From Bacteroidota bacterium (GTDB lineage Bacteria; Bacteroidota; Ignavibacteria; Palsa-1295): a stretch of 64,000 bases of DNA. The position numbers and the translations under genes were made by a program. Location: the NCBI GenBank assembly GCA_021324735.1, contig JAJPIO010000005.1, positions 62,001 through 126,000 on the forward strand, read 5' to 3'. Below are positions 3,483-29,245 of the stretch, piece after piece. Each line of letters starts with the position of its first letter. Positions within the stretch are counted from its first letter, which is position 1. The notes beneath the pieces were generated by a model. It had not been told where the DNA came from. It saw only the letters and a program-made list of their open reading frames with translations, and ran no database searches.

Positions 3483-5552
3483 ATGATTCCTCGTTTTAGT
3501 GTGTCGGAATTACTTCGTTTTTGGGCCATGTTAGCCGTCCCATCACGTTTGCCAGAAGTGAAGGATTCTCAACGCCGATCATTTGTCCTCTGTTTGCGGG
3601 TTTTCTTCCTTATATCAGGAAGCGCCTTTGGCATTGCAAACCCAGCATTGGCGACGACTTGTACGACGGTAACTAACGGACCCTGGTCTTCTCCCTCCGT
3701 CTGGACGAGCGGGATACTCCCTAACCCTGGCGATACGATCATCATTAACCACGGCGATTCTGTTTGGTTAGATGAATCGACCCCAGCACTTGCGGCGGTT
3801 CATGTCGACGGCTGGCTCAGCCTTGGAAAAGATACTCTTTTCCTCCGTGGAAACAGGTACGATACTATCGTTACTATTAACGGCACGCTCGATGCCGACA
3901 CCGGATGGTTTTATGTCGTCGATTCCGTTCGAGCGATCGTTCGATTATCCTCCAGTGGCCGATTTCGAACCGCAGCGGCGTTCCCTTACGTATCACTGAG
4001 TATATTTGATTCATCGATCACGCCATTTTTTGCGTGTGACTCCGGTAGCACGTTCGAATATTATTCGCACAATCTTGATCTCATCGATATTACATATCTT
4101 GCCAATAATATTATTGGTGGCAAATATTGGAATCTTACACTTACTGGTGTAAATGCTTCTCTCCGCTCCAGACCACTTGCTGTTCGTGGTACATTCCGAA
4201 TTGGGTTCGGAAGTTCTGTCATTCCGGGTTCTCAGCAGATCACGATCTTTGGAGATGTAGTGAATGAAAATGCAGGGGAATCCGGAGCGCCAGGCGCCGG
4301 CCTTCGCGGCTGCGGGATGCAGTCCTCGAGTTTCGATAACTGGATATTCGACCAGTTTCCCAGCGGATCAGGGAAAGATACATGCCACTGGAGCGGACCG
4401 TCACAACTGGGTAGCGTCGTTGTTCGACCCCATACCGTGCTTAGCGTACGATACCTTGATGACAAGCATTGCGATTCACTCGATATTCTTACCCATCTTA
4501 CTGAAGAAAGCATGCCCTGCGGCGGACATGTGATCGGAAAGATCTTTTCAGAGTTTACTCGCACGCTCGATGCTTCCAATCCTATTGATAGCTTTTACGG
4601 ACTTGGATTAACCATTAAAAGTGGTACGAATCCTTATTTAGGCCGCGTACGTGTCGTTCGAACGGCGGGTTATGAACCTCCCAATTTCTCGGCTTCGAAA
4701 AATGGCTTAGGTGGTGGGCAGGCTGTATTACGGTATTACAGGATTACCTCGAGTGCGGGTCCGCAATATGATCCTCCGAACGAGTTGCAAATGCAAGTCC
4801 ATTGCGACGAATTTAATGGCGCCCACGCGGACCAATTACATTTTTGGCGATCGAGAGATCAAGGTGCGACCTGGGCCTTTAGCGGGCTTACCCATGCAGA
4901 CCTTGCATCGAATGTATTTGTGTGGGATACGACGGTCCTCGGATGGCCAAATGATTCTGGAAGTTTTTATTGGACGCTTGCAGAAGGCTACGCTGACATT
5001 CCGTTGCCTGTAACGGTCCAGAATTTCAGCGCGACCTCGAACGGCTCAATAGTCCTGCTCTCATGGCAACCAACGTCAGAAGCAAACGTGCAAGGCTACG
5101 AGATCGACCGAATGACTGATGTTGATTCCGAGATGATCGCTTCCTTCCGAACGGATGCAGATCTTGTAGCGCATTCACCATTAGGGAGTTATTCGTATAC
5201 AGATAATTACGCTTTATCTAAGCCTGTCCGATACGATCTCTTTGAAGTGACGAAAGATGGTATTCGAGTATGGCTGGGATCTCGTGTTGCCAGTTCGCCA
5301 AACGTTGCGCCTATCATTCAAGACATTGCTTACCACAATGGCTCTTTGGTCTTTGAAACCAGCGGTCTGTTACAGGCACAGATAACGATTGTCGATGCCA
5401 TTGGTCGGGTATGCTTTCAAAACGATCATTTGGTCCAAAATCAGACAGCCATTCCGATTACGCTATTCCCCGGATTCTATCTTATAGAGGCACGCTGGAA
5501 TACAGGAGTAGTCTTAAGGAAAGCTACGGTAGTAGGCGGTGATGGGTCGTGA
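3483..5552 (+). CDS. Large secreted surface protein with T9SS-like C terminus
   Basis: 689 residues. A signal sequence lies at about residues 32-58, so the true start may be the ATG at 3528 rather than 3483. The mature protein opens with a module common in Bacteroidota surface proteins (NGPWSSPSVW, then PGDTIIINHGD). A fibronectin-like strand segment follows near residue 507 (LPVTVQNFSA, VLLSWQPTSEANVQGYEIDR), then a final beta domain from about 609 that resembles a T9SS type A sorting domain (VDAIGRV, PGFYLIEARW, VVLRKATVV). It should be exported and attached to, or released from, the outer membrane. Ligand unknown. Next to the similarly built gene at 5628. Confidence 0.75.
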   Translation: MIPRFSVSELLRFWAMLAVPSRLPEVKDSQRRSFVLCLRVFFLISGSAFGIANPALATTCTTVTNGPWSSPSVWTSGILPNPGDTIIINHGDSVWLDESTPALAAVHVDGWLSLGKDTLFLRGNRYDTIVTINGTLDADTGWFYVVDSVRAIVRLSSSGRFRTAAAFPYVSLSIFDSSITPFFACDSGSTFEYYSHNLDLIDITYLANNIIGGKYWNLTLTGVNASLRSRPLAVRGTFRIGFGSSVIPGSQQITIFGDVVNENAGESGAPGAGLRGCGMQSSSFDNWIFDQFPSGSGKDTCHWSGPSQLGSVVVRPHTVLSVRYLDDKHCDSLDILTHLTEESMPCGGHVIGKIFSEFTRTLDASNPIDSFYGLGLTIKSGTNPYLGRVRVVRTAGYEPPNFSASKNGLGGGQAVLRYYRITSSAGPQYDPPNELQMQVHCDEFNGAHADQLHFWRSRDQGATWAFSGLTHADLASNVFVWDTTVLGWPNDSGSFYWTLAEGYADIPLPVTVQNFSATSNGSIVLLSWQPTSEANVQGYEIDRMTDVDSEMIASFRTDADLVAHSPLGSYSYTDNYALSKPVRYDLFEVTKDGIRVWLGSRVASSPNVAPIIQDIAYHNGSLVFETSGLLQAQITIVDAIGRVCFQNDHLVQNQTAIPITLFPGFYLIEARWNTGVVLRKATVVGGDGS

Positions 5553-5627: not shown

Positions 5628-7382
5628 GTGTTGCCTCGCGTGCCCTTGCCATTACAGTATAGATCAGAGTTTGCCGCGATGCTTCGATCGCATCCACTCA
5701 CTTCCCGCACTCCGAGCGATAAACGACCGCTCTTCGGCACAGCTATAACGTTTGTGCTGAGAGCGATAGCTATGCTCACCGTCCTACTTTTTTCGGGAAG
5801 CAGCTACGCGCAATTAATGATCAATAAAGGCGCAACGATCGTGACCAAACCGAGCTCGTACATGCAGGTCAACGGCGCGTATCAAAATCAGACCGGTTCG
5901 ATCGACGACTCCGGCACCGTTACCATTACGACCGATTTCACTAATAACAGCGCCGCTACTGCAGGTGGATCGGGCCTCTATAATATCGGCGGCAACTTTA
6001 CGAACGATGGTACCTTCGTTCGCAAGACCGGTACAGTGAATCTTGATGGTACCTCCAATCAGAATGTGGGCGGTGCGGTGATCACGACATTCTACGATCT
6101 GCAATTCACGAACGGCGGATCGAAAACGTTGACACAAGAGGAAGACGTCGATAGCAATTGCTACTTCACAAGCGGAGTATGCTATACAACACAGACGGAT
6201 ATTCTTCACTTTACTACAAATGGCAATTGGGTAAATAACTCTGGTATGCCGACCTCATCCTGCGCCAGTTATGTCAGTGGCCCTTGTGCAAAGGATGTTA
6301 ATTCCACTAATCGCTTCTGGTTTCCCGTCGGTAAGGATGGACGCGCTAATACCTGCGCTATCACTCCATCGACATCTACTGCCACGACATTTCGCACCCA
6401 ATATTTCGATTTCCCATACACGAACACAACGAGTATTCAATCACCATTAATGACCGTCAGTAAAGTGCAGTACTGGCATGGCGATATTACATCCGGTGGT
6501 ACAAATGCGATCATTCGTCTTTATTGGATTCCCGGTGATTATGTGATCTCGTGGTTACAGTCCGTCTCCAATTTGGTAGTGGCACGATGGGATACGCTCG
6601 CCCCGAATCCACCAGGACCCAGACCGGCATGGGTTACGGCTGGTGTTAGTGCACTAAGCCCAACGGCAACATGGAATTCCGGTTGGATCGAGTCCGCTAC
6701 GGTGACGACTGCACAGTACGGTACATCCACCATTAACCGACCGTTTACCCTTGCGTCTCTTACAGCCGATAATTCACTACCGGTCGAGGTAGGACGCTTT
6801 GTCGCTCGACAGCAGAACAACCATGTCGTACTCGACTGGAAAACGTACAGCGAAATTCAAAATCTTGGATTTGAAATAGAGCGTGAGAAAGAATTGGATG
6901 GCTCCGCGCCTGGCGCGTCCATGCAATCCCAGTTGATCAAGAGTTTTGTAACAGATTCGGAATTACGTGCGAAAAGTCCGTGGGGTGCCGAATATGAAAC
7001 GATCGATGACAATTCCCTTGTAACAGGCCGGTACACCTATCGCCTTTATCAAATCGATCTGAATGGCGTTCGTACACAAGTAGGGTTGCAAACGGTAGAC
7101 TTTAACGAACTTGCGATCCCGAAAGCGTTGGAAGTTACATTATATCCGAATCCGGTAGCCAACGACGCGAACGTAGAATTTGCAATGCCCCAGGAATCCT
7201 ACGTAACGTTTGCGATCTATGATATTACGGGAAGGGAAGTTCAGAGAGGCGGCGATGGAGAATACTCCGCAGGACCACACACCGTTTCATTCGATGTTTC
7301 ACGGCTTTCGCCTGGCACTTATACGTTAGATGTATGCTCAGGTTTCACACATCTTTCTAAAAAGTTTGTCGTCGGCAGATAG
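5628..7382 (+). CDS. Secreted protein with T9SS type A sorting domain
   Basis: 584 residues from a GTG at 5628. The ATG at 5679 is an alternative start; both precede a signal peptide ending SSYAQ at about residue 62. The N-terminal third is Asn/Gly/Thr-rich and strand-like (NGAYQNQTGS, YNIGGNFTN, VNLDGTSNQNVGG). A fibronectin-like segment starts near residue 384 (LPVEVGRFVA, GFEIERE). A clear T9SS type A C-terminal domain runs from about 503 (LYPNPVANDANVEF, YDITGREV, LSPGTYTLDV, SKKFVVGR). TATAAT at 5604-5609 could be a -10 element. Probably a cell-surface or released protein of unknown role. Confidence 0.85.
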   Translation: MLPRVPLPLQYRSEFAAMLRSHPLTSRTPSDKRPLFGTAITFVLRAIAMLTVLLFSGSSYAQLMINKGATIVTKPSSYMQVNGAYQNQTGSIDDSGTVTITTDFTNNSAATAGGSGLYNIGGNFTNDGTFVRKTGTVNLDGTSNQNVGGAVITTFYDLQFTNGGSKTLTQEEDVDSNCYFTSGVCYTTQTDILHFTTNGNWVNNSGMPTSSCASYVSGPCAKDVNSTNRFWFPVGKDGRANTCAITPSTSTATTFRTQYFDFPYTNTTSIQSPLMTVSKVQYWHGDITSGGTNAIIRLYWIPGDYVISWLQSVSNLVVARWDTLAPNPPGPRPAWVTAGVSALSPTATWNSGWIESATVTTAQYGTSTINRPFTLASLTADNSLPVEVGRFVARQQNNHVVLDWKTYSEIQNLGFEIEREKELDGSAPGASMQSQLIKSFVTDSELRAKSPWGAEYETIDDNSLVTGRYTYRLYQIDLNGVRTQVGLQTVDFNELAIPKALEVTLYPNPVANDANVEFAMPQESYVTFAIYDITGREVQRGGDGEYSAGPHTVSFDVSRLSPGTYTLDVCSGFTHLSKKFVVGR

Positions 7383-7490: not shown

Positions 7491-7521
7491 TTGACTTTCC
7501 ATTTTAAAGTGTCTATATTTG
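7491..7521 (+). promoter_or_regulatory. Bacteroidota-type promoter of the first beta-roll operon
   Basis: TTG at 7491-7493, a 20-nt spacer and TATATTTG at 7514-7521 fit the Bacteroidota -33/-7 consensus (TTTG and TAnnTTTG). It lies 63 bases before the first ATG of the operon. The same pair with the same 20-nt spacing is found upstream of the OmpA-family gene at 43836, which strengthens the call. Confidence 0.7.
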
Positions 7522-7584: not shown

Positions 7585-9738
7585 ATGTCGAGCGTAAGCT
7601 TTCGATCCACCCCACTGGAGAGAAGGCAGGACGGGATTGAAGCCTTTTCCCATCCGGCCCTGTATTGTGCCCGATCATCGCGATGCGTTGATCGTGGTGT
7701 CGCTCGCCTTGTTGTTGCTCTCGCGCTTACCATCGTTTGCGTCGTCACGGTCCGTGCTCAAAATGTTTCTATCGGTACGGCGACAGCCAATAGCTCCGCA
7801 CTGCTGCATCTCGAATCGACCACGAAGGGATTGCTCATTCCACGAATGAGCAATACCCAGATGCAAGCGATCAGCTCGCCAGCAACCGGTGATCTGGTAT
7901 ACAATACTACGTATTCGAATTTTTATTACTACAACGGTACCTTTTGGACGCCGATCGTCGGCAGCGGATGGTCCACTACCGGTGATGCCGGTACCAGTGC
8001 TTCGACAAATTTTTTAGGGACGAAGGACTCGGTCGATCTCGTGCAGAAGACGAATAACCGCGAACGCATGCGCGTCTATGCAGGCAGCGGCGTCGGGCTG
8101 ATCAATACGCTTAACTCCGCAGAGGCACTCGTTCTCTATGAGCCTTCCGGACATGGCTCTAATTACACTGCGTTCAAAGCAGGATTTCAGGACAGCACTA
8201 TCCGCTATACGTTGCCAACGACTGATGGTATCAATGGTCAGGCCCTCTGCGATAGTTTAGGAATAATGGGATGGAAAACATTCGGCACTGTTGGCGGAGG
8301 GTTTGGGGATACATTATGGAAGCGAGGCAGCGGTACAGCGTCGCTGTTATCGCTCGGTACTGGCAACAAAGCAAATGGTAAGTGGTCTATCGTGTCGACC
8401 GAATACTGTACAGCCGGAGCGGAAGCCTCGTCTGTTTTCGGCGACTCCAATAGCTCGAGCGCGAAATACGGCTGCGTGACGGGTGGATCCAATAATAGCG
8501 TTGCAGGACAGGGTGGAAGTACCGTACGAGGAGGATTCTTTAATAGCGCCGGATCACAGAATACGATGATCATTGGTGGTTTATATAATCAGACGTCCGG
8601 TCAAAACTCCGTCGTCCTCGGCGGCGATTCGAATAATGTCAGCGGCGGAAATGCGATCATCATCAATGGTGCTGACAACAGTTTTAGCAGTCAGGATAAC
8701 CTCGTCTTCGGATACAATGCAAAACCAACCGGACAGGATCAATTAATATTTTATCCGCCAACTTCATCGGGCATTAGGACGGGTATTCAGAACACAAGTC
8801 CGCAGGAAGCGATCGATGTAACAGGCAACGTACGGTTCGAAGGAACGGGTGTGGGTGTATTAAAGCCTAATGGAAGCGGCGGCTCGAGCGGACAAAAGTT
8901 ACTTTCCGCAGGCGCGGGCTCTCCGCCAACATGGGGTACGATCTCGATCCCTTCCACCAACTGGGGACTTACCGGATCGTTCGGTACCACTCCACCAACT
9001 AATTTCATTGGCACGATCGATTCGGTCGCGTTCGTCATTCGAACGAATGCCACAGAACGAATGCGCGTCCGAGCCAACGGGGTAGTCGGGATCAACACCT
9101 CAACCTCATTACATCAACTCACCTCTGTTTCCAGTAGTACCAGCGATGAAGTGGCGGGCATCTTCGCTAATAGCACGGGCAGTTCTACGTCAGAAGCAAT
9201 AGGGGTTTGGGGTCGCGCAAGTGCAAGCAGTTCCAATACCGGATCGATCGCCTTACTTGCAACCGGTAATGGCAACGCGGCTTCCGGTACAACGAACGTT
9301 GCCCTGCAAATTTCGCAAGGTGAATTTGCAATGGGTCGCACCTCTCAAGGTCCCTCTGCCGGCACCGCTGTTGAGCCTGCCGTTTCGGGCACTGCTTATT
9401 CTCAGGAAGGGCCTTCCGGCGTAATTCAATTGGCGCTGCTTACAGACCTCACTTCTTCGTCTCCGACCGCCGGAGTCTATCAGGATCTTGGGACTGTCAC
9501 GATCAATAACCGCTACATTACTTCGAATAGCATCATATTGACTGCTGTCGTTTCCAAGATCGATGGCGGTGGTAATCCGAGCCCGAAGAATTCGATCTAT
9601 AAAGTAAATGTGGAAAGCAGAACTGCCGGATCGTGCGTCCTGCGTATCGGCATGATGCCATTTGTGACCGATCCAAGCAATTATCAGGGCTCCGATTATA
9701 TACGTGTTGGCTATCTTGTGATCAATCCGGGCAGATGA
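7585..9738 (+). CDS. Beta-roll (YadA-head-like) secreted protein, type A, first of operon 1
   Basis: 717 residues. A long N-terminal extension precedes the signal core, which ends VRAQ near residue 58. Modules in order: an IGT module (VSIGTATANSSALLHLES, residues about 60-120); a GDAGTSASTNFLGT..ERMRV module (about 130-175); a linker ending DTLWKRGSG; a beta-roll of about seven 15-residue repeats of the type NSVxGGxxNSxxG (about 283-376); a second copy of the NFIGT..ERMRV module; and a C-terminal domain ending YLVINPGR. The repeats resemble heads of trimeric autotransporter adhesins, but there is no membrane anchor. The next gene starts inside its stop codon (ATGA), indicating translational coupling. 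Role unknown; a surface fibre or adhesin is likely. Confidence 0.8.
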   Translation: MSSVSFRSTPLERRQDGIEAFSHPALYCARSSRCVDRGVARLVVALALTIVCVVTVRAQNVSIGTATANSSALLHLESTTKGLLIPRMSNTQMQAISSPATGDLVYNTTYSNFYYYNGTFWTPIVGSGWSTTGDAGTSASTNFLGTKDSVDLVQKTNNRERMRVYAGSGVGLINTLNSAEALVLYEPSGHGSNYTAFKAGFQDSTIRYTLPTTDGINGQALCDSLGIMGWKTFGTVGGGFGDTLWKRGSGTASLLSLGTGNKANGKWSIVSTEYCTAGAEASSVFGDSNSSSAKYGCVTGGSNNSVAGQGGSTVRGGFFNSAGSQNTMIIGGLYNQTSGQNSVVLGGDSNNVSGGNAIIINGADNSFSSQDNLVFGYNAKPTGQDQLIFYPPTSSGIRTGIQNTSPQEAIDVTGNVRFEGTGVGVLKPNGSGGSSGQKLLSAGAGSPPTWGTISIPSTNWGLTGSFGTTPPTNFIGTIDSVAFVIRTNATERMRVRANGVVGINTSTSLHQLTSVSSSTSDEVAGIFANSTGSSTSEAIGVWGRASASSSNTGSIALLATGNGNAASGTTNVALQISQGEFAMGRTSQGPSAGTAVEPAVSGTAYSQEGPSGVIQLALLTDLTSSSPTAGVYQDLGTVTINNRYITSNSIILTAVVSKIDGGGNPSPKNSIYKVNVESRTAGSCVLRIGMMPFVTDPSNYQGSDYIRVGYLVINPGR

Positions 9739-11810
9739 AGAAAGCAGGCTACATCGTTATCCTGATCGTTCTGGCCGCGTTACTTGGCCGCGTTAATGCG
9801 CGCGCTCAAAACAACGTCGGCATTGGAACGACGGCACCGGATGCCAGCGCACTGCTCGATCTCACAAGCCTTACAAAAGGTCTGCTCGTACCGCGCATGA
9901 CGGAAGCGCAAAAGCTGGCGATCTCTTCACCGGCTACTGGTCTTCTTATTTATGAGACCGATAATGCGACACAAGGAGCATACGCGGGGCAGACACCGAC
10001 GTTCTGGTACTACAACGGATCGGCCTGGACTCCCTTCCGTGGATCGGGATGGCTCTTGCTCGGTAATTCCGGTACTAACGCTTCGACCAATTTCATCGGT
10101 ACTACTGATTCGATGGATTGGGTCATTCGCACCGATAACTTCGAGCGGTTACGAGTCTATGCTGGTAGTAACGTTGGCCTAACAAACACGAACAATTCCG
10201 CGGAAGAATTACGGTTCTATCAGCCTTCGGGGATGGGTTCACTTTATTCCGGATTTAAAGCTGGCGTTAATTTAAATTCGGTCACTTATACCTGGCCGCC
10301 GGCTGATGGCAACGGTGTAAATTATATTCTTTGCACAGATGGCTTCGGACATCTTGATTGGAAAGGGTTTGGTACAGCAGGCGGTGGTGGTCTCGATACC
10401 TTTTGGTCTCGCGGATACGGACGATTTTCCCTTATTGGTCATGGGGCCGGTTGTATTGCATCCGGAGATTTTTCTCTTACCGATGGATTCGATAACAATG
10501 CTTCCGGTACTGCTTCAGTGGTATGGGGAGAGAATAACATTGGGTCCGGCTTTGGTACTGTTATCTCTGGCGGGTCGACCGATACTGCGAGCGGAGACTA
10601 TAGCACGATTGGTGGAGGTAGTAACAATTCGGCAACAGCCAGTTATTCTTCCGTCGTTGCGGGCCAGAACAATAGCGCATGTGGTAACTATGCCGTTGTG
10701 GTTGGAGGCAGTAATAATATTGCGTGTGGTAATTACTCGGTTATTCTTGGTGGAAGCAGTAATACAGTCACTGGCAATTATTCACTGGCGTTTGGAGTAA
10801 GTGCGACCGTATCGACCGATAATACGGTCGTCTATTACGCTTCAGGAAATACACCTGTTAAGGTGGCCATCGGTAATCAGTCCCCCTCCGAAGCCTTAGA
10901 TGTTACGGGTAACTTCCGATTTTCGGGCGCGCTCATGCCGAACGGTCTTGCCGGTACACCAGGATATGTTCTGGCTTCCGCAGGTGGTACAACGTCACCA
11001 ACATGGACACAGGTCTCCTCTTTATACTGGAGCACGTTCGGTAACACCGGTACAACACCCGGTACAAACTACATCGGTACGATCGACTCGAAAGACTTCG
11101 TCTTTAAGACCTACAATACCGAGCGTATGCGTATTCTTTCGACCGGTCAGGTCGGTATCAATACGACCACCTCTACTCATCAGCTTTACTCGATCTCCTC
11201 CAGCACCACGGACGAGATCGCGGCGGCCTGTGGTCAGACAACGGCTGTCACTACAAGCCAGGGAATTGGCCTGTGGGGCGCGGCCTCTTCGACGAACAGT
11301 GCAAACACGGGTACGATCGGCGTGCTCGCAACCGGTAATGGCAATACTGCCAGCGGAGCTTCAAATGCATCACTGCAATTGAACGACGGTGAACTCGCAA
11401 TGGGCCGCACCACGGAAGCGCCGGGCATCGGTACATCCGTCGAAGGTGCTGCAAGCGGCTCGGCTTATTCTGCACAGGGTCCCAGCGGTGTGATCGAACT
11501 AACGCTCGGTGGTGGCAATCTTTCGACAAGCGCACCAACGGCCGGCGTCTTCCAGAACTTAGGTACACTTACGATCAACAACCGGTATTGCTCTTCCACA
11601 AGCATCGTGATCGTTAACGTCCTTTCCAAAAGCGATGATGGCATCGCCCCAGATTGCACGCTCGCGGAATATTTAGTCGATGTCGATAACCGCACCACAG
11701 GGACTTTTGATATTCGTGTTGGAATGATACCGACGACCACCAGCGCCTCGAATTATTCCACATCGGATAAAATCCGGATCGGATACATGATCGTGAATCC
11801 CGGCAGATGA
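9735..11810 (+). CDS. Beta-roll secreted protein, type B, second of operon 1
   Basis: 691 residues. I start at the ATG at 9735, which overlaps the previous stop and gives an immediate signal peptide (MKKAGYIVIL to ARAQ); the longer frame from 9633 lies inside the upstream gene. Same module order as its neighbours: NVGIGTTAPDASALLDLTS, ..VIRTDNFERLRV.., a beta-roll at residues about 235-354, a repeat of the ERMRI module, and a C-terminal domain ending YMIVNPGR. Two consecutive repeats carry cysteines exactly 15 residues apart (SACGNY and IACGNY), which would stack in adjacent coils. Type B differs from type A in its IGT module and in the C-terminal stretch KSDDGIAPDC. Probably assembles with its operon partners. 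Confidence 0.8.
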   Translation: MKKAGYIVILIVLAALLGRVNARAQNNVGIGTTAPDASALLDLTSLTKGLLVPRMTEAQKLAISSPATGLLIYETDNATQGAYAGQTPTFWYYNGSAWTPFRGSGWLLLGNSGTNASTNFIGTTDSMDWVIRTDNFERLRVYAGSNVGLTNTNNSAEELRFYQPSGMGSLYSGFKAGVNLNSVTYTWPPADGNGVNYILCTDGFGHLDWKGFGTAGGGGLDTFWSRGYGRFSLIGHGAGCIASGDFSLTDGFDNNASGTASVVWGENNIGSGFGTVISGGSTDTASGDYSTIGGGSNNSATASYSSVVAGQNNSACGNYAVVVGGSNNIACGNYSVILGGSSNTVTGNYSLAFGVSATVSTDNTVVYYASGNTPVKVAIGNQSPSEALDVTGNFRFSGALMPNGLAGTPGYVLASAGGTTSPTWTQVSSLYWSTFGNTGTTPGTNYIGTIDSKDFVFKTYNTERMRILSTGQVGINTTTSTHQLYSISSSTTDEIAAACGQTTAVTTSQGIGLWGAASSTNSANTGTIGVLATGNGNTASGASNASLQLNDGELAMGRTTEAPGIGTSVEGAASGSAYSAQGPSGVIELTLGGGNLSTSAPTAGVFQNLGTLTINNRYCSSTSIVIVNVLSKSDDGIAPDCTLAEYLVDVDNRTTGTFDIRVGMIPTTTSASNYSTSDKIRIGYMIVNPGR

Positions 11811-13882
11811 AAAAAACATCGTACATCGTACTACTGATCGTTATTGCTGCGATGCTGCCGCAGGGTGTACGAGCACAGGCAAACGTAGGGATCGGTACGA
11901 CGTCGCCGGATGCCAGTGCCTTGCTCGACCTGACGAGTAATTCAAAAGGCTTACTGGTCCCGCGTATGACGGAGTCGCAAAAGAACGCCATCGCGACTCC
12001 TGCAACGGGACTCTTGATCTACGAGACCGACACGGCAACAACCGGCTCGTATGCCGGACAGGCGCCTACCTTTTGGTATTACAATGGCACGACATGGATA
12101 CCTTTCCTCGGCGCTGCATGGCAGTTACTCGGTAATTCCGGCACATCGCCGACCTATAACTTTATTGGTACGAAAGATTCGGTCGATTGGGTGATACGCA
12201 CTCGCGATACGGAGCGTGTGCGCATATATTCCGGCGGGAATGTTGCCTTGCCTAATTTCACGAATACCGCGGAAGAGATACGCTGGTTCATGCAGTCCGG
12301 ATCCGGCTCGTATTATACTGGCTTCAAGTGTGATACGATGATCCGAGCGACCACCTACATTTGGCCTCCTTCGGATGGCCAGGCAACCAACTGGGTTCTT
12401 TGCACGGATGGATTTGGTGATCTTTCCTGGAGAGGCTTTGGCGCCGCAGGCGGTGGTGGTATCGATACCATGTGGTCTCGTGGTACAGGCACGCTCGCTC
12501 TGGTTGGTCACGGCGTTGACAATATCTCATCCGGTAATTATTCTATTTCCAGCGGCTATGAAAATACTGCTTCCGGAACCGCCACGGTATGCTGGGGTGA
12601 GCACAATATTGCTTCCGGATATGCCGCCGTAGTTGGAGGAGGTACCTACGATACGGCAAGTGGAAATTACAGCACGGTCGGTGGCGGCTCGAATAATTCT
12701 GCCAGTGGCACGTATTCTTCCGTTGTTGCGGGGCAGTATAACGAAGCCTGCGGTAAATATGCCGTGGTGGTCGGTGGATCGAATAACACTGCGTGCGGAA
12801 CGTATGCGACGATACTGGGAGGCTCCGGAAATACGGTGAGTGGTAGTTATTCGCTAGCCTACGGGATAGGATGTAACGTTACAACCGACAACACCATCGT
12901 TTATTATTCGTCGAACGGTACGCCTATGAAGGTTGGCATTGGGCTTAGCGCTCCGACCGAAGCTCTGCACGTTTATGGCAATATTCAGTTTTCGGGTGCA
13001 TTGATGCCCGCCGGCAATGCCGGTACTACGGGCTATGTCCTTGTCTCGACCGGAAGTAACTCTGCACCGGTGTGGTCTTCAACATCCAACCTCTTCTGGA
13101 GCCAGTCCGGAAACACAGGCACCAGCGCGAGCAGTAATTACCTTGGCACCAGCGATGCAAAGGATCTCGTCTTTAAGACTAATAATACGGAACGTATGCG
13201 TGTGCTCTCGACGGGACAGGTGGGCATCAATACGTCAACGCCGAGTCATCAACTTCATATTGTATCGTCAAGCACAACGGACGAAGTGGCGGCGCTTTGT
13301 GCACAGACGACAGCCGCTACTACCACTACCCAAGCCATCGGAGCGTGGGGAATGGCTTCGGGATCCGGCGCGGGAAACACCGGAACGATAGGTGTTTTGG
13401 CAACCGGTAATGGAAATCTTACCGCAGGACAGACCAACGTTGCTCTACAGATCAACGATGGTGAGTTTGCGATGGGCCGCACCACCGAAGCACCTGGTAT
13501 CGGTACATCCGTCGAGGGTGCTGCGAGCGGCACGGCGTATTCCGCGCAAGGACCGAGCGGTGTCATCGAACTTACGCTCGGCGGCGGCAATCTTTCGACC
13601 ACAGCGCCGACCGCCGGTGTCTATCAGGACCTAGGCACGCTTACCATCAATAATCGATACACGTCTTCTTCGAGCATTGTGCTTGTGAGTGTACTTCAAA
13701 AAACGGACGATGGTGTCGCGCCCGATTGCAGACTTGCGCAATATTTTTGTGATGTCAATAATCGTACGAGCGGAGCGTTCGCTATTCGCATCGGTATGAT
13801 ACCAACCACAACGAACGCATTGAACTACTCCACTTCTGATAAGATCAGGATCGGTTATACGATCATTAACCCAGGACGATAA
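11807..13882 (+). CDS. Beta-roll secreted protein, type B, third of operon 1
   Basis: 691 residues, the same length as the preceding gene and a close paralogue of it. The ATGA overlap with the 9735 gene again fixes the start. A signal peptide (MKKTSYIVLL to VRAQ) is followed by NVGIGTTSPDASALLDLTS, the DSVDWVIRT module, and a beta-roll at residues about 233-353 with repeats such as YSTVGGGSNNSASG. The stacked cysteine pair is present (EACGKY and TACGTY). The C-terminal domain ends YTIINPGR. This is the last gene of operon 1; the structured element starting at 14037 follows. A recent tandem duplication of type B is likely. Confidence 0.8.
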   Translation: MKKTSYIVLLIVIAAMLPQGVRAQANVGIGTTSPDASALLDLTSNSKGLLVPRMTESQKNAIATPATGLLIYETDTATTGSYAGQAPTFWYYNGTTWIPFLGAAWQLLGNSGTSPTYNFIGTKDSVDWVIRTRDTERVRIYSGGNVALPNFTNTAEEIRWFMQSGSGSYYTGFKCDTMIRATTYIWPPSDGQATNWVLCTDGFGDLSWRGFGAAGGGGIDTMWSRGTGTLALVGHGVDNISSGNYSISSGYENTASGTATVCWGEHNIASGYAAVVGGGTYDTASGNYSTVGGGSNNSASGTYSSVVAGQYNEACGKYAVVVGGSNNTACGTYATILGGSGNTVSGSYSLAYGIGCNVTTDNTIVYYSSNGTPMKVGIGLSAPTEALHVYGNIQFSGALMPAGNAGTTGYVLVSTGSNSAPVWSSTSNLFWSQSGNTGTSASSNYLGTSDAKDLVFKTNNTERMRVLSTGQVGINTSTPSHQLHIVSSSTTDEVAALCAQTTAATTTTQAIGAWGMASGSGAGNTGTIGVLATGNGNLTAGQTNVALQINDGEFAMGRTTEAPGIGTSVEGAASGTAYSAQGPSGVIELTLGGGNLSTTAPTAGVYQDLGTLTINNRYTSSSSIVLVSVLQKTDDGVAPDCRLAQYFCDVNNRTSGAFAIRIGMIPTTTNALNYSTSDKIRIGYTIINPGR

Positions 13883-14339
13883 TAGATCGATATTGAAAAG
13901 AACAGTAACATATAAACAACCGGCTATCTCTGAGCGATAAATTTCAGAGGTCCTGGAAGGCCGCAAATAAAGTTGGTAAGCAATGCTTACCCGGTAGATG
14001 TGCATGACATCATACACATCGCCAGTTGAAGCTGCGAAAGCATGAAGGTATTATGTACTTTCATGCTTTTGGACATCGGACGGATGCCAATGTTCGCGGC
14101 AATAAGAATAGGGGTCGCCGTGGGGGGTGACCCCTATTTCATTTAGTAAAAATTTCGTCTAACAAGGGCCAAATTTTTTAAAACCTAATGCTTCCTTCTG
14201 GAGTTGTATAGGTAGTTTTCAAGACATGTTTTGTTTTGAAAGGTATTTAGTCTTCTTTCTTTTTATTACAATTTGCCTCTTTTTCTCTGATTTCCCTAAA
14301 ATCAGGTAAAAAGTTTGCCATGAAAGGGAGAGCTGCGTT
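13883..14339. other. Intergenic region between the two beta-roll operons
   Basis: 457 bases with no convincing gene. It contains the structured element at 14037-14137, then an AT-rich leader that should hold the promoter of operon 2. No full TTG/TAnnTTTG pair is seen there; TAGTTTTC near 14212 is one base off the -7 consensus. A short ATG frame from 14320 runs out of frame into the next gene and ends within about 35 codons. Confidence 0.6.
14037..14137 (+). ncRNA. Conserved multi-hairpin element, copy 1 (3' end of operon 1)
   Basis: Hairpin 1 has 14-bp arms at 14037-14050 and 14056-14069 with one G-T wobble. The 18-mer CATCGGACGGATGCCAAT (14074-14091) follows, which can form short stems of its own. 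The last hairpin has 12-bp arms at 14108-14119 and 14126-14137 around a GTGGGG loop. Copy 2 sits after operon 2 at 18496-18597. The 18-mer and the GTGGGG loop are identical in both, while the stems change with compensation, which suggests a selected RNA structure. It could be a terminator-like 3' UTR element or a small RNA. Strand is inferred from the operons. Confidence 0.6.
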
Positions 14340-16430
14340 ATGCCTCACTTTTGTCCATCGCAAGGGGCCAACTGGTGTGTCCCGAGTGTTCTTCGGCTTT
14401 GTTATCAGGGCTTTGCTGCACTGACCATTGTTGCACTGTTGGGATCTCACCCGTTGCAAGCCCAAAATGTGTCGATTGGTACTGCCACCGCTAACAGCTC
14501 CGCGTTATTGCATCTCGAATCGACGACGCAAGGGCTTCTTGCGCCGCGTATGAGCAATACGCAGATGTTAGCAATTGCTTCGCCGGCCACTGGTGACTTA
14601 GTATATAATACAACGTACGTCAATTACTACTATTACACTGGTAGCTACTGGACTCCGCTTGGTGGCAGTGGTTGGTCTCTAACCGGTGATGCTGGAACAA
14701 GTGCTTCGACCAACTTCCTCGGCACAAAGGACTCGGTCGATCTTGTGCAGAAGACAAAGACCATTGAACACTTGCGGTTTTATGCTGCCGGTAACGTGGG
14801 TCTTACCAACTCACAAAACACTGCGGAACAGCTTGCATTTTATGAGCCCTCCGGATCCGGTACCAACTACACATCTTTTAAAGCTGGCATACAGTCCGGG
14901 ACAGTCCATTATATCTTGCCACTTGCTGATGGTTTGCCGAACCAAGCACTCGTTACAGATGGAGCCGGCAATTTAAGCTGGCACACCTTCTCCACATTTG
15001 GTGGAAGTGGAACACAATCACTCTGGAAGCGCGGGTCTGCGGCCGGCGGAGAATACTCTGATAGTTCTTCTAATTCGGATTCAGGTCCGTATTCTATCGC
15101 CGCTGGAAAGAGTAATAGCGTAACAGGAAATTATGAAGACGTTTTTGGAAGTAGCAATTCCATTCAAGGATCGTACGGTTCGATCCATGGTGGTGTTAGC
15201 AATGGCTCATCCGGAGATTATGATGTGGTCGGTGGTGGGCAAAGTAATAGTGCTCAAGCGACGGCGACCTTTATCGGCGGCGGGAGCAACAACTCGCCGC
15301 AGGGCGATAAAAGCGTTATTATAGGAGGTACCGGTAATTCCATCAACGCTACTAACGGTACGATCCTCGGTGGCAGTGCTAATAGTATTGGCGGTAATAA
15401 TGAGATGTGTTATGGCCAAAGTGTTGCCATGGGCACCTCGGCGTTCGTCGTCTTTAAGATGGGCACCCATCGAACGCTCATGGGTGTAGGTACAACAGCA
15501 CCAACAGAATATTTAGATGTCGTTGGCAATGTAAAATTTTCCGGTTCGCTAAAGCCTAATAATAGTGCAGGTACCAGTGGTCAATATCTTAAGTCCGCAG
15601 GCAGCGGTACTCCTCCGACCTGGGGGACCATTTCACTTCCCTCGACGAACTGGGCACTTACCGGTACGTTTGGCTCTACTCCACCCTCTAGTTTCATTGG
15701 TACGATAGATGCGCAGGATTTCGTAACCCGCACCAATGCAACCGAGCGCATGCGCGTTACTTCGGGTGGACTGATCGGAATCAACACCAGCTCTCCCGCA
15801 CATCAGCTAACATCTCATTACTCAGGTACCGCGACCGAGGTCGCTGCCCTATACGGAAATGCGAGCGGATCGACCACTGTACAAGCTGTCGGTATATGGG
15901 GACGAGCGGATAACACCAGTATCGCTAATACTGGCACCATATCATTGCTCGGTGTTGGGAATGGCAATACGACCGCCGGTCAAACGAACGTGGCACTTCA
16001 AATAAATGACGGAGAATTTGCTATGGGTCGTACGACAGAAGCTCCCTCTGTTGGTACGGACGTAGAGGGAGCAACTGCAGGTACTCTCTTCTCTGCTCAA
16101 GGTCCCTCTGGAGTTATTCAGCTCTCTATGGCAACGGATCTTTCCTCTACAGCTCCAACCGCCGGCATATATCAGGACCTCGGGAAAGTTACAATTAACA
16201 ACCGCTATATTACCGCCAATAGTATTATTCTGGCTAACGTTGTCGGAAAGATCGACGGTGGTGGGAATCCGAGCCCTAAGAACTCCATCTATAAAGTCAA
16301 CGTCGAAAGCAGAGCGGCTGGATCTTGTGTAGTGCGCATTGGGATGATCCCATTTGTGACAGACCCGAGCACATTCCAAGGTTCTGATTACATTCGATTA
16401 GGATACATTATAATTAACCCAGGGCGATGA
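14340..16430 (+). CDS. Beta-roll secreted protein, type A, first of operon 2
   Basis: 696 residues. GGGAGAG about 7 bases upstream is a reasonable ribosome binding site for this ATG. The signal peptide ends PLQAQ near residue 42. The order matches the type A protein at 7585: VSIGTATANSSALLHLES, GDAGTSASTNFLGT, a linker with SLWKRGS, a beta-roll at residues about 251-358 (YDVVGGGQSNSAQ, SVIIGGTGNSINA), a second FIGT..ERMRV module, then a C-terminal domain sharing DGGGNPSPKNSIYKVNVES with the 7585 protein and ending YIIINPGR. No cysteine pair in the repeats. The downstream gene starts inside its stop codon. Likely pairs with the type B product that follows. Confidence 0.8.
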   Translation: MPHFCPSQGANWCVPSVLRLCYQGFAALTIVALLGSHPLQAQNVSIGTATANSSALLHLESTTQGLLAPRMSNTQMLAIASPATGDLVYNTTYVNYYYYTGSYWTPLGGSGWSLTGDAGTSASTNFLGTKDSVDLVQKTKTIEHLRFYAAGNVGLTNSQNTAEQLAFYEPSGSGTNYTSFKAGIQSGTVHYILPLADGLPNQALVTDGAGNLSWHTFSTFGGSGTQSLWKRGSAAGGEYSDSSSNSDSGPYSIAAGKSNSVTGNYEDVFGSSNSIQGSYGSIHGGVSNGSSGDYDVVGGGQSNSAQATATFIGGGSNNSPQGDKSVIIGGTGNSINATNGTILGGSANSIGGNNEMCYGQSVAMGTSAFVVFKMGTHRTLMGVGTTAPTEYLDVVGNVKFSGSLKPNNSAGTSGQYLKSAGSGTPPTWGTISLPSTNWALTGTFGSTPPSSFIGTIDAQDFVTRTNATERMRVTSGGLIGINTSSPAHQLTSHYSGTATEVAALYGNASGSTTVQAVGIWGRADNTSIANTGTISLLGVGNGNTTAGQTNVALQINDGEFAMGRTTEAPSVGTDVEGATAGTLFSAQGPSGVIQLSMATDLSSTAPTAGIYQDLGKVTINNRYITANSIILANVVGKIDGGGNPSPKNSIYKVNVESRAAGSCVVRIGMIPFVTDPSTFQGSDYIRLGYIIINPGR

Positions 16431-18487
16431 AAACAACTGCTAAAATAATTGCTTACGCCCTGATAGCGCTCCTCGTAATTACAGGCGATGCCACAGCGCA
16501 GGGGAATGTCGGTATCGGTACAACATCACCCGATGCAAGCGCTTTATTGGACCTAACAAGTCTCTCACGTGGGCTACTCGTACCTCGCATGACGCAAACT
16601 CAGCGTAACGCGATAGCAACTCCAGCAACCGGTTTGTTGGTGTACTGCACGGATTCGGTCAATTCCTCAAATCCTTCTACCTTTTATTATTATAACGGTT
16701 CGGCATGGGTACCATTTAACGGTGCTGGCTGGCTTCTGCTTGGTAACTCTGGTACAAGTGCAAGCACTAATTTTATCGGCACTAAGGATTCTGTCGATTG
16801 GGTCATTCGTACGAACAATACGGAGCGGGTGCGGGTATTTGCCGCGGGCAATGTGGGGCTGATGAACAGCAACAACTCCGCAGAAGAACTTCGCTTTTAT
16901 GAGCCATCCAGTTCAGGTTCAACGTACACTGGTTTTAAAGCTGGCATTCAATCTGGAAACGTAACCTATACGTGGCCTTTGGCTGATGGCAATGGTACCA
17001 ATTATGTAATGTGCACGGATGGCTCTGGTAATCTTTCGTGGAGAGGTTTTGGTACTGCCGGCGGCGGTGGAACCGATACATTGTGGCGCCGTGGCAGCGG
17101 CCAGGATGCATTGGAAGGAGTAGGACAAGGCAACTCGGCAACAGGAGGCTGGTCAATAGCGGCTGGATATCACAATACTTCTTCCGGAACGTATGCAGTT
17201 GCATGGGGAGCCAACAACCGTGCTACTAATACCGGTGCAACGGTGTCCGGCGGTGAATACGATACTGCAAGCGGACAATACAGTGTGGTGAGCGGAGGAT
17301 TTGAAAATTCGGCTACAGGAGATTATTCATTTGTTGGAGGCGGTGAAAACAATAGCGCATGCGGCCAATATGCTGTTGTCGTCGGGGGATACAATAACAC
17401 TGCCTGTGGAAATTACTCCGTCGTACTCGGTGGCAACCATAATAGCGCTTCCGGTAACTATGATTGTGTCTTCGGTGTAGGAGCGACCGTTACCCAGGAT
17501 AGCAGTGTGGTCTTTTATAATTCTGGTGGCGGGCTGCGCCTCGGAGTTGGTCAACAATCTCCCACGGAAGTTCTGGATGTTTCCGGTAATGTAAAATTTA
17601 CCGGTGCACTCATGCCGAACAATACTGCCGGAACCTCGGGCTATGTGCTTGCATCGACAGGTTCCAGTTCAGCACCGGTATGGACCTCAACGTCGAACCT
17701 CTATTGGAGCACATTCGGGAACACCGGGACAACACCTTCGACCAATTACCTGGGTACCATCGACTCCAAGGACTTTGTGATCAAAACGAATAACACCGAG
17801 CGAATGCGAGTGCTTGCAACCGGCCAGGTCGCCATCAACACGACTTCAACAACGCATCAATTGCATTCCCTTTATACTGGTACTACGAATGAGACGGCCG
17901 CTATCTATGGAAATGCAAGTGGCACGACCTCGAATCAAGCGATCGCAGTATGGGGCGATGCTTCGAATACCAGTACTTCCAATACAGGCACGATCGGTAT
18001 GCTGGCAACGGGCAATGGAAATCTTACCGCAGGTCAAACTAATGTCGCCCTGCAACTGAACGATGGTGAATTTACAATGGGCCGCACGACAGAGACGCCT
18101 AGCGTTGGCTCTGTGGTCGAAGGCGCGACAGGCCATACCGGATGGTCGGCACAAGGGCCAAGCGGAGTGATCGAATTGACGCTCGGCGGCGGTAATTTAT
18201 CAACGAGTGCTCCGACAGCCGGCGTATTCCAAAACCTGGGTACACTCACTATTAATAATCGCTATACGTCTTCCTCCAGTATTATTTTAGTGAATGTTCT
18301 CCAAAAGTCGGACGATGGAGTTGCTCCTGATTGTAAACAGGCAGAATATTTTGTAGACGTCGATAACCGCAGCAGCGGCACTTTCGATATTCGTATTGGT
18401 ATGTTACCAACCATAACGAGCGCGTCAAACTACTCCACATCCGATAAGATCCGGATCGGATATACGATCATCAATCCAGGGCGTTAA
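16427..18487 (+). CDS. Beta-roll secreted protein, type B, second of operon 2
   Basis: 686 residues, started by an ATGA overlap with the 14340 gene. A signal peptide (MKTTAKIIAY to ATAQ) leads into NVGIGTTSPDASALLDLTS, then the DSVDWVIRTNNTERV module, a linker ending DTLWRRGSG, and a beta-roll at residues about 232-349. The stacked cysteine pair of type B is conserved (SACGQY and TACGNY). The C-terminal domain ends YTIINPGR. Only 8 bases separate its stop from the second copy of the multi-hairpin element. Function unknown; context suggests it is co-produced and co-assembled with the type A protein. Confidence 0.8.
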   Translation: MKTTAKIIAYALIALLVITGDATAQGNVGIGTTSPDASALLDLTSLSRGLLVPRMTQTQRNAIATPATGLLVYCTDSVNSSNPSTFYYYNGSAWVPFNGAGWLLLGNSGTSASTNFIGTKDSVDWVIRTNNTERVRVFAAGNVGLMNSNNSAEELRFYEPSSSGSTYTGFKAGIQSGNVTYTWPLADGNGTNYVMCTDGSGNLSWRGFGTAGGGGTDTLWRRGSGQDALEGVGQGNSATGGWSIAAGYHNTSSGTYAVAWGANNRATNTGATVSGGEYDTASGQYSVVSGGFENSATGDYSFVGGGENNSACGQYAVVVGGYNNTACGNYSVVLGGNHNSASGNYDCVFGVGATVTQDSSVVFYNSGGGLRLGVGQQSPTEVLDVSGNVKFTGALMPNNTAGTSGYVLASTGSSSAPVWTSTSNLYWSTFGNTGTTPSTNYLGTIDSKDFVIKTNNTERMRVLATGQVAINTTSTTHQLHSLYTGTTNETAAIYGNASGTTSNQAIAVWGDASNTSTSNTGTIGMLATGNGNLTAGQTNVALQLNDGEFTMGRTTETPSVGSVVEGATGHTGWSAQGPSGVIELTLGGGNLSTSAPTAGVFQNLGTLTINNRYTSSSSIILVNVLQKSDDGVAPDCKQAEYFVDVDNRSSGTFDIRIGMLPTITSASNYSTSDKIRIGYTIINPGR

Positions 18488-18495
18488 AGCCACAA

Positions 18496-18597
18496 CGCAT
18501 GACCGCACTATCATACGGTCATGCGCCTGCATCGGACGGATGCCAATAATTTGTGGCAAAAAAGAGTAGGGATCACCGTGGGGGGTGATCTCTGCTC
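18496..18597 (+). ncRNA. Conserved multi-hairpin element, copy 2 (3' end of operon 2)
   Basis: The first hairpin has perfect 10-bp arms (CGCATGACCG and CGGTCATGCG, 18496-18525). Four bases later comes the same 18-mer as in copy 1 (18530-18547). The last hairpin has 14-bp arms at 18564-18577 and 18584-18597 with two wobbles and the same GTGGGG loop. Base pairs differ from copy 1 on both sides of the stems (for example GA-to-TC in place of CC-to-GG), which is covariation. It lies between operon 2 and the convergent gene ending at 18645, so it may terminate one or both. Confidence 0.6.
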
Positions 18598-18644
18598 GTT
18601 TTAAAACATGTCTTGGCAGCTATCTATCAAATCGCGGCTCGGTT

Positions 18645-20810
18645 TTATTTTACCGATTCTAACACGAGCTCAGCGATATCTTTTACTTTTACGTTGTCGG
18701 ATGCCCCTTTCGCTTTCACGCCATCGGAGAGCATGGTCATACAATACGGGCATGCGGATGCAACGACCTCAGCACCAGTAGCAAGTGCTTCTTCGGTCCG
18801 TTCAATATTAATGCGCTTACCCTCTTTCTCTTCCATCCACATTTGGCCACCGCCCGCACCACAGCAGAAGCCGCGTGAGCGCGAACGGTCCATTTCGACA
18901 ACATTTAAGCCCGGTATTGCTTCGAGTGTAGTGCGTGGTTCTTCGTAAATATCATTCGAGCGGCCGAGGTAGCAAGAATCGTGATAGGTAGCACGCTCGA
19001 GCAATTCCTTCGACGGTTTAATACGTCCGGAATCAAGGAGACCCTTGATAAACTCCGTGTGGTGCTCAACTTCATAATGTCCGCCAAAATCCTTCCATTC
19101 ATTCTTGATCGCATTAAAACAGTGCGGACACGTCGTTACTACCTTTGTGACATGATAACGATTTAAGGTATCGACATTCTCACGGATCAGCATTTGGGCA
19201 AGATACTCATTGCCCATGCGGCGCGCCGGATCCCCGGTACACTTTTCTTCATTGCCGAGAATACGAAAATCAATACCGGCTAACTGCATTAGTTCAGCGA
19301 ACGCTTGCGTGATCTTCTTCGCCCGCTGATCGTACGAACCGGCACAACCAACCCAGAAAAGGACCGGCGATTCTTCAGGGTTGAACGACTCCGCCATCGT
19401 CTTAATGTTCATGCCCTGCGCCCAATCGCCGCGCTCCGATGGTGAGAAAGCCCACGGAGAAAAATTATTCTCCATATTGCCGAACGCCGATTGCAACTCG
19501 GATGGGAAGCTCGACTCCATCATGACCAGATTGCGGCGAAGATCGATGATCTCATCAACGTGTTCGATCATTACCGGGCACTCCTGCATGCACGCTTGAC
19601 ACGTCGTGCATTGCCATAACATTTCTTCCGGTATGTAATCGCCTACGAATTTTTTCGAATCAACCTCTTCTTTTGTGCGTCGTGGCTTCTGCCAAAGAAG
19701 CGTGCCTTTTGCATGGTTGACGGTACGGTCCTCGGGTGTGACGATCTCTTCACCACCGGTATTCTCACCTCCCGTTGCAACTTTCGATTTTACGACTTCA
19801 CCCATCCAGCCATCGAAGCCATACGCACCTTGTGCCGTTAAATAAGGAGCTTTATCGAGCAAGCGCGCTTGCGTCGCGATGATGATCTTGCGCGGATCGA
19901 GCAACTTCCCGGTGGTATTCGCGGGACAGACCGACGTACAACGACCGCAATGCGTGCACGTATCGCCATCTAACAATTGCTTCCACGTGAGGTCTTCAAT
20001 ATCCGATGCACCATATTTCGTGACCGTCTCATCCTCGAAGTTGATCGGCTTAAGGTAATTCTTCTTCTTGAGATCGGAGAAGTAAACGTTAGGTAGTGAT
20101 GTGATGACGTGCAAGTGTTTCGAATAGGGCAGATAATTCATAAAGCCAAGAACGGCTATGATATGAACCCACCAGGCGCTCTCGTACCAGATCGGAGTAA
20201 GCGAAGCCGCTTGAGCATGCCCGCCTATAGAGCCAACCAGGAAAGAATGCGAAGCAAGTGCTGCAAGCCAATGCGCTTCCCACGGATATTCGCCGCCCAT
20301 TGCAATACGCGCGGCGTTATCGATCGTGAGGGAGCATACAATAATAAGAATAAGGAAGAGAATCAGCGCAGCATCGAAACGCTCGTGCGAATCTCCTTCC
20401 AATCGCTTAACATGCACGACGAATCGGCGCCAGAAGGAGGCAAGCACTGATACGATCACTAATGATACAAAAACATCTTGCGAAAATGTGATGACCGAAT
20501 AGAGCGGCCCCAAAAACGAGAGGGAAAAATGTCCGGCCGTTAATCCTTCGCCGATCGATTCAATGACAGCGAAGAGTAATACCAGAAATCCCCAAAAGAT
20601 AAACGCATGGACGATACCTGCGACGGGATCCCGAAGGATCTTCGACTGACCGATCGCAATGCCGAGTACTCGTTTAACACGTTCGTTCGGTTTGTCGAAA
20701 CGGTTGGTCCACTTACCGAGCCGGAGGAAGTCGATAAGCCGCTTAGAATTAATGATGATGCCCGCGAATGCTGCAAGGAGGACGATCGCAAAAATTATGG
20801 CTTTGATCAT
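18645..20810 (-). CDS. Membrane-bound iron-sulfur oxidoreductase with CCG domains (HdrD/GlpC-like)
   Basis: 721 residues. The N-terminal 250 residues form about five membrane helices resembling the nitrate reductase gamma/cytochrome b type. Two 4Fe-4S motifs follow: CTHCGRCTSVCP near residue 285 and CTTCQACMQECP near 400. Two cysteine-rich CCG domains start near 488 (WVGCAGSYD) and 610 (DSCYLGRSN, CCGAGGGQMW near 648). This is the layout of heterodisulfide-reductase-related electron carriers that pass electrons between the quinone pool and a soluble partner, often ETF. No etf or dehydrogenase gene lies nearby, so the partner is unknown. Monocistronic, convergent with operon 2. Confidence 0.85.
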   Translation of the reverse strand: MIKAIIFAIVLLAAFAGIIINSKRLIDFLRLGKWTNRFDKPNERVKRVLGIAIGQSKILRDPVAGIVHAFIFWGFLVLLFAVIESIGEGLTAGHFSLSFLGPLYSVITFSQDVFVSLVIVSVLASFWRRFVVHVKRLEGDSHERFDAALILFLILIIVCSLTIDNAARIAMGGEYPWEAHWLAALASHSFLVGSIGGHAQAASLTPIWYESAWWVHIIAVLGFMNYLPYSKHLHVITSLPNVYFSDLKKKNYLKPINFEDETVTKYGASDIEDLTWKQLLDGDTCTHCGRCTSVCPANTTGKLLDPRKIIIATQARLLDKAPYLTAQGAYGFDGWMGEVVKSKVATGGENTGGEEIVTPEDRTVNHAKGTLLWQKPRRTKEEVDSKKFVGDYIPEEMLWQCTTCQACMQECPVMIEHVDEIIDLRRNLVMMESSFPSELQSAFGNMENNFSPWAFSPSERGDWAQGMNIKTMAESFNPEESPVLFWVGCAGSYDQRAKKITQAFAELMQLAGIDFRILGNEEKCTGDPARRMGNEYLAQMLIRENVDTLNRYHVTKVVTTCPHCFNAIKNEWKDFGGHYEVEHHTEFIKGLLDSGRIKPSKELLERATYHDSCYLGRSNDIYEEPRTTLEAIPGLNVVEMDRSRSRGFCCGAGGGQMWMEEKEGKRINIERTEEALATGAEVVASACPYCMTMLSDGVKAKGASDNVKVKDIAELVLESVK

Positions 20811-24745: not shown

Positions 24746-25918
24746 ATGAAAAAGCTCATTCTCATTCTAGTTGTTTTCTTCATGTGCCCGGCGTTGCGTG
24801 CGCAATGGCGCACCGCAACAGCACGCCATCTTATCATTGCATTTGGTGTGCACGATTCATCGCTCTTCGCAAGTTGTCATGACGCGTTTACGGATAACTA
24901 TCTTCAACGATACACAGGCTCTTCGGATCCGTTTAACCGATGGGTTATGAGTGATACCGGCATTGACTTTTCGCAGGGGAGAGTCACGTCGTTCGCGTCG
25001 CTAGGACAATATTTCTTTGCAGGCATGACGGCTTCCAATAATGGACCGGGGACAGCATGGCGATCATCGGACGAAGGGAGACATTGGACTGCAAACGCGG
25101 GTGGATTCGTCTGCACCAATGGCCGCTATATGTATTGCGTTGCTGATGGTATTTACCGCTCTTTAGATTCAGGGGGTTCTTGGCATAAGGTTAATAATAC
25201 TCAGGCTGAGCTTCTTTCGTCAAGAGATTCAATCGTTTTTGCATTCAGATATGACGCCCGGGTTCGATCTACAGATAGTGGTTCAACATGGTCGAACGTT
25301 TCAATGCCACTCTCAAACGTTAAGAGTGCGATATGGTTAAAAGGAATGTTCTTCATTGCAAACAACTCCGATACCATTGCCGAGACCAAAAACAACGGTA
25401 ACTCTTGGGTGACGATAACTATCCCACGCCGCATAGTTACACAGCTTGCATCAAACGATAAATACATTTTCGCTGGTACGGATTCAGGAGTTTATCTTTC
25501 ACGTGACAGCGGTGCAACCTGGACCGTTGAGAACGATGGACTTGGTACGATATACCAGGTCAATGCTCTTTGCGTTTGTGACACACTCCTCTTTGTGAAC
25601 ACCGGGACCCAAGATTATTACACCGCCTTTCGGCCGTTGTCAGATTTTGACAAACCGTCAACAGTAACACCAATTGATCAGCAAAAGGAGTTGATCGCCA
25701 TTTACCCAAATCCCACTCGAAGTTCTTTCACGATCGAGTGTTCCTCTGAGATTCGATCCGTGCAAGTGCTGAATGCGTTGGGCGAAGAAGACCTCACTGC
25801 AACGTCAGCTACCACTCGAATGACGCTTGACATTAGTTCGTTGCCGTCCGGTCTCTATTGGTGCCGTGTAAGAACCGCAAACAGCGAACAGGTTCAAAAA
25901 CTGATTATTGAAAGCTGA
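24746..25918 (+). CDS. YCF48/BNR-like secreted protein with T9SS domain, copy 1
   Basis: 390 residues. A signal peptide (MKKLILILVVFF to LRAQ) is followed by short repeated Asp-box-like units (YRSLDSGGSWHKV, RSTDSGSTWSNV, YLSRDSGATWTVE), as in YCF48/sialidase beta-propellers. The last 70 residues form a T9SS type A sorting domain (AIYPNPTRSSFTIE, LNALGEE, LPSGLYWCRVRT, QKLIIES). Propellers of this type usually mediate binding; no catalytic site is seen. It starts 2 bases after the previous stop and is nearly identical in its signal peptide to the next gene, a tandem duplicate. Confidence 0.85.
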   Translation: MKKLILILVVFFMCPALRAQWRTATARHLIIAFGVHDSSLFASCHDAFTDNYLQRYTGSSDPFNRWVMSDTGIDFSQGRVTSFASLGQYFFAGMTASNNGPGTAWRSSDEGRHWTANAGGFVCTNGRYMYCVADGIYRSLDSGGSWHKVNNTQAELLSSRDSIVFAFRYDARVRSTDSGSTWSNVSMPLSNVKSAIWLKGMFFIANNSDTIAETKNNGNSWVTITIPRRIVTQLASNDKYIFAGTDSGVYLSRDSGATWTVENDGLGTIYQVNALCVCDTLLFVNTGTQDYYTAFRPLSDFDKPSTVTPIDQQKELIAIYPNPTRSSFTIECSSEIRSVQVLNALGEEDLTATSATTRMTLDISSLPSGLYWCRVRTANSEQVQKLIIES

Positions 25919-25925
25919 GGCAGTT

Positions 25926-27110: not shown

Positions 27111-27118
27111 GGTGTCTA

Positions 27119-29233: not shown

Positions 29234-29245
29234 GAGGAGCGCACA

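Follow-up and report, generated by a model that had tools for sequence, protein, structure and literature searches.

The window analysed here, a stretch of 64,000 nucleotides, belongs to a genome of 3.55 Mb in 19 contigs and holds five paralogous genes in two transcription units, A1-B1-B2 (unit alpha) and A2-B3 (unit beta), which are listed with their surrounding features in Table 1. All five frames are open where the initial annotation had placed them, the start of B1 being taken as the ATG at 9735 and not the upstream GTG at 9633. Read directly from the sequence, each protein has a Sec-type signal segment with an AxAQ-like end site and none has a lipobox; searches of Pfam and NCBIfam find neither a membrane anchor nor an autotransporter barrel in any of the five, and the original view of them as exported fibre proteins is upheld. 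Across the five-protein alignment identity to A1 is 46-59%, and the proposed division into types A and B, which differ in their IGT module and C-terminal stretch, is equally evident. Indeed, in a maximum-likelihood tree of 22 full-length proteins from the genus, A and B form separate groups, each with support of 100/100.

Table 1. Features of the A-B locus and its upstream neighbours (positions within the window)
Feature	Position	Strand	Details
G8-domain protein, upstream neighbour	3483..5552	+	type IX CTD sub-threshold; synteny
Type IX secretion (type A CTD) surface protein, upstream neighbour, probable partner	5628..7382	+	synteny
TAnnTTTG promoter element, upstream of A1	7514..7521	+	part of TTGACTT...TAnnTTTG
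A1, type A fibre protein, unit alpha	7585..9738	+	717 aa; open frame, alignment, tree
B1, type B fibre protein, unit alpha	9735..11810	+	691 aa; ATGA overlap with A1; tree
B2, type B fibre protein, unit alpha	11807..13882	+	691 aa; ATGA overlap with B1; tree
3' hairpin element after unit alpha, terminator-like	14068..14150	+	14-bp stem
A2, type A fibre protein, unit beta	14340..16430	+	696 aa; open frame, tree
B3, type B fibre protein, unit beta	16427..18487	+	686 aa; ATGA overlap with A2; tree
Beta-roll of B3	17072..17482	+	residues 216-352; 15-residue repeats, UspA1-head-like
C-terminal module of B3	17816..18484	+	residues 464-686; last ~110 residues modelled as H-lectin-like beta-sandwich
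3' hairpin element after unit beta	18490..18605	+	CATCGGACGGATGCCAAT common to both copies

The genes within each unit are closely coupled, with ATGA overlaps at 9735, 11807 and 16427, that is, at all three of the within-operon junctions, as first described. Among six related genomes (G001 to G006) only one further junction has this overlap, the A-B junction of G001 (one of the two in that genome), and the others range from a 1-nt overlap (B-B in G001, and G005) to short gaps, several starts being possible at these junctions such that the choice between them is unsure. In other words, tight spacing is conserved and the ATGA overlap itself is not, and hence the earlier proposal that the subunits are made in fixed ratio does not follow. 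A promoter-like TTGACTT...TAnnTTTG precedes A1, and a similar TTGACTT...TCTATATTTG stands before A in G001 and G003. Strong hairpins follow each unit (z of -3.7 and -6.3), the 14-bp hairpin showing paired changes between its two copies; the flanking motif ATCGGACGGATGCCAAT has no exact copies in the genome other than the two that stand behind alpha and beta. Neither element has a match in Rfam. In most relatives, too, the sequence beyond the final B gene can fold into stable hairpins, as calculated without a shuffle control.

The pairing of A with B is a constant feature of the genus. In all seven genus genomes examined the cluster lies in one syntenic place and A is always followed by B, with the layout A-B-B in G001 and G006, A-B-A-B in G003, A-B in G002 and G004, and, in G005, A-B plus another A whose B is cut by the end of a contig. 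In none of the seven, therefore, do A and B stand singly in unrelated places, the arrangement which the initial annotation had named as evidence against its proposal. The five window genes are the only full copies in their genome; a divergent copy of the C-terminal module, the sixth there, sits at one end of contig 17. Outside the genus no whole-protein match was found among the matches listed for 100 relatives.

The full-length trees of A and of B agree on an alpha unit (A1-B1-B2 of the window, G001, G006 and A2-B2 of G003) and a beta unit (A2-B3 of the window, G002, A1-B1 of G003, G004 and, in the A tree, the second A of G005), leaving the first A of G005 and several B proteins unplaced. Since both trees tell one story, the A-B pair was duplicated as a unit, as had been proposed, and the event is an old one; the split of B1 from B2 came within alpha, after the G003 branch. 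Contrary to the full-length tree, a tree of the C-terminal module only groups B1 and B2 of the window, and likewise B1 and B2 of G003, by genome, which suggests local gene conversion among B copies; fourfold-site identity reveals no recent conversion tract within the window. Homogenisation between A and B inside one genome was looked for and not seen.

The middle of each chain is a beta-roll with a period of 15 residues and about nine coils. A profile of the five proteins searched against the PDB matches the trimeric head of UspA1 (3pr7, E=1.5e-26), and on these two grounds the initial assignment of a YadA-head-like roll in mid-protein is confirmed. The roll is 133 residues long in all 12 B proteins and 133-136 in the 10 A proteins, and is the most divergent part of the chain, with identity of 35% between A and B and as low as 30% between one A and another. 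The 15-residue repeats are shared with the heads of the trimeric autotransporters UspA1 and YadA, and with CbpF, from which the fibre proteins differ in their N- and C-terminal modules. Unlike the type Vc trimeric autotransporters, moreover, they have no YadA-type anchor detectable by Pfam or NCBIfam, and their C-terminus takes the form of a beta-sandwich in the models.

The shaft provides the link to a known class of fibre. The same five-protein profile matches the Bdellovibrio protein Bd3182 (8ojn, E=0.002), which is the structure of a mosaic adhesive trimer, or MAT (PMC10769870), over the IGT module, whose NVGIGT/VGINT turn resembles a capping loop. The profile of the shorter paralogs linked to the locus (see below) matches Bd3182 at E=8e-4 and Bd2133 at E=5e-3. 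The MAT matches, each weak by itself (E of 1e-3 to 5e-3), agree across two independent queries and two MAT structures. B2 additionally matches two tail-fibre PHROGs, at 3.4e-8. The first reading of the locus as a system of no recognisable kind has thus to be given up: with modules matching MATs, phage tail-fibre families and the UspA1 head, the proteins are placed among the phage-fibre-like trimeric adhesins. Within these, the lack of Peptidase_S74 anywhere in the genome limits the comparison to, at most, the non-S74 subgroup of MATs. The MAT entries in the PDB being C-terminal parts only, the likeness is one to those parts; MATs also have a conserved N-terminal beta-rich domain of ~130 aa following the signal peptide.

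In common with the non-S74 MATs of Bdellovibrio bacteriovorus (PMC10769870), the A and B proteins have a signal peptide, a modular phage-fibre-like shaft (its trimeric state being a prediction here), a swappable beta-rich C-terminal tip and several paralogs per genome. They depart from them in coming as conserved A-B pairs, in having a UspA1-like roll inserted, in a tip fold which is unlike the six solved MAT tips by the description in that paper, and in their pattern of conservation, the roll varying most and the tip ranking with the best-conserved parts. At the N-terminus the NVGIGTT...GLLVPRMT module is widespread in Bacteroidota, being shared with tail-fibre-like proteins that differ from A and B in body and C-terminus.

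A module made up of the final ~220 residues is the exact C-terminus in all 28 relatives found to contain it. Their bodies are very different and their lengths run from 231 residues to over 2,500, the relatives of 231 and 347 residues being cut by contig ends and the longest open frame, of 3,425 aa, being found in G003. By profile search, 12 of the 391 genomes from the class carry the module, as do 2 of the 395 in a phylum sample, the listing for the window's own genome being kept apart. It has no Pfam family, giving only sub-threshold Pfam matches, and a sequence search of the PDB returns nothing credible, only antibody chains. Among the proteins that end in this module are giants of 1,290 to more than 2,500 aa (L091, L096, L101, L102 and L105), and the same genomes include such giants; those at L091 and L096 open with an SYQG-type N-terminal domain, and that at L105 (in G063) has a BppL_N (phage baseplate) match.

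The tip proper, the final ~110 residues, is modelled as all-beta with a pLDDT of about 75-89, the shaft having low confidence in the monomer models. Its nearest solved folds are the snail agglutinins of Helix 4q56, 2ccv and 2ce6 (Foldseek probability 0.98-1.00, E of 0.04-0.1, TM about 0.6 by target length), which are recovered again from the full-length model; the closest predicted structures from viruses are, for the most part, those of uncharacterised proteins of tailed phages. Although the H-type lectins (the Helix pomatia and Helix aspersa agglutinins, discoidin; PF09458) have the solved fold nearest to the modelled tip, the tip has no sequence relationship to them that could be detected: it gives no Pfam H_lectin match, and profile-profile alignment to H_lectin homologs by hhalign gives a probability of 4%, which does not support homology. 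The link is, therefore, at most one of fold resemblance. The tip is 109-111 residues long in all, with identity within each type of 69-75%.

Upstream of A1, the protein encoded at 5628-7382 has a type IX sorting domain of type A above cut-off, and the genome also encodes SprA. Homologs of this gene and of the G8-domain gene lie upstream of the cluster, and homologs of 18645-20810 downstream, wherever the contigs of relatives reach. None of the five A and B proteins has a type A or B sorting domain. Two shorter fibre paralogs separate A from the type IX gene in G001 and G002; they have the N-module of A and B, the IGT module and another C-terminal domain (phrog_24062). G006 has three such paralogs on another contig, and in G009, of a sister genus, they occupy the A-B locus itself. 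In other words, one N-module and IGT module is found at the locus with at least two tips, as in a mosaic. Arrays of fibre paralogs of 350-560 aa lie at or near the locus at L103 (contig C25 of G009), L090 (5281-8395), L026 (3575-6780) and L032, with a shared N-module and differing C-terminal domains (phrog_24062-like or Phage_depo_C-like).

Elsewhere in the window, three proteins encoded at 24746-30424 have weak BNR/sortilin-like matches together with type IX sorting domains above cut-off, and stand in a row with genes that have no Pfam match. The product of 42214-43932 has an OmpA-type C-terminal domain and resembles PorE of type IX secretion, below the curated cut-off. The gene at 35029-36774 is dnaA, beyond which the cumulative GC skew rises, and the chromosome origin probably lies nearby.

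From these features the locus of this Kapaibacterium-related bacterium is probably best understood as encoding fibres for the cell surface that are MAT-like, or phage-tail-fibre-like, with lectin-like tips and an A/B pair from each unit. Each chain would be exported by Sec and would trimerise through a beta-prism shaft built of the IGT/capping-loop modules, with the UspA1-like trimeric roll in its middle. The N-terminal NVGIGT...GLLVPRMT...YYYNGT module would face the cell and the C-terminal beta-sandwich would form the tip, which seems to have an H-type-lectin-like fold and whose ligand is most likely a glycan. A matched A and B, nearly the same in length, would then come from every transcription unit. 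In the simplest arrangement these would be two kinds of homotrimer, distinguished by the surface of the tip and by the roll, which are displayed together and present two different tips at one height. The type IX-exported neighbour at 5628-7382 is the likely surface partner and, for passage across and retention at the outer membrane, the best candidate.

The constant lengths of roll and tip fit two fibres of equal length, and they fit a mixed trimer too. It is in this regard that co-assembly of A and B, as mixed trimers or a heteromeric bundle, which was the reading of the initial annotation, has to be weighed: roll and tip lengths match between the types, the units were duplicated as pairs, and every one of the ten A genes in the seven genomes has a B behind it (one such B being cut by a contig end). 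Tandem genes can, however, duplicate jointly without any contact between their products, and the known relatives, UspA1, the MATs and tail fibres, are homotrimers. Moreover, identity between A and B is 35% in the rolls and 46% in IGT2, and is equal within and between genomes, such that an A is no closer to the B of its own genome than to that of another. Co-assembly is accordingly unlikely. Its stronger form, which is given a little less credence again, is an obligate A/B heteromer anchored on the type IX-exported neighbour, with a new lectin-like tip family shared with the giant fibres of the same cells; were it true, a MAT-type organelle would be built from a co-inherited pair of subunits.

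Less probable still is that the C-terminal module serves mainly as an export or sorting signal, or as an assembly chaperone, and not as a ligand-binding tip. Its invariable position at the exact C-terminus of differing bodies, and its place among the best-conserved parts, are what would be expected of a shared signal, but linked fibres with a common N-module carry another C-terminal domain instead, the module matches neither the type A/B CTDs nor S74, and its fold resembles lectins and phage proteins. An ice-binding or ice-recrystallisation-inhibiting role is very improbable. The roll of B2 does exceed the cut-off of PF21300 (LbR_Ice_bind, the grass antifreeze beta-roll) at 36.6 against 30 bits, and two related genomes are apparently from permafrost or palsa samples; yet the other four proteins fall below that cut-off, the UspA1 head is a far better match than the antifreeze roll 3ult (E=1.2e-6), and the roll is embedded within a tail-fibre-like chain. 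The least credible reading, that of remnant prophage tail-fibre genes, draws on the PHROG matches and phage protein folds, and is opposed by the signal peptides, the units' own promoter and hairpins, the constant place across genus genomes, the lack of any adjoining phage genes seen and the failure to find a viral contig encoding the C-terminal module.

The A-B locus is, then, a true and well-kept fibre unit, recognisable as MAT-like and bearing a tip module that has no Pfam family. A literature search for the term mosaic adhesive trimer finds only Bdellovibrio papers, and a search for these A and B proteins finds nothing; the kind of fibre is known from predatory bacteria, but for the tip, and for the inheritance of A and B as a pair, there appears to be no earlier description. 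MAT-type fibres, described in a predatory proteobacterium, are thereby extended to a Kapaibacterium lineage with genes for type IX secretion, and a C-terminal tip module absent from Pfam is pointed out. With the A-B unit comes a genetically simple system in which to ask whether these fibres act as matched pairs, and how fibres without an anchor stay on the cell surface.
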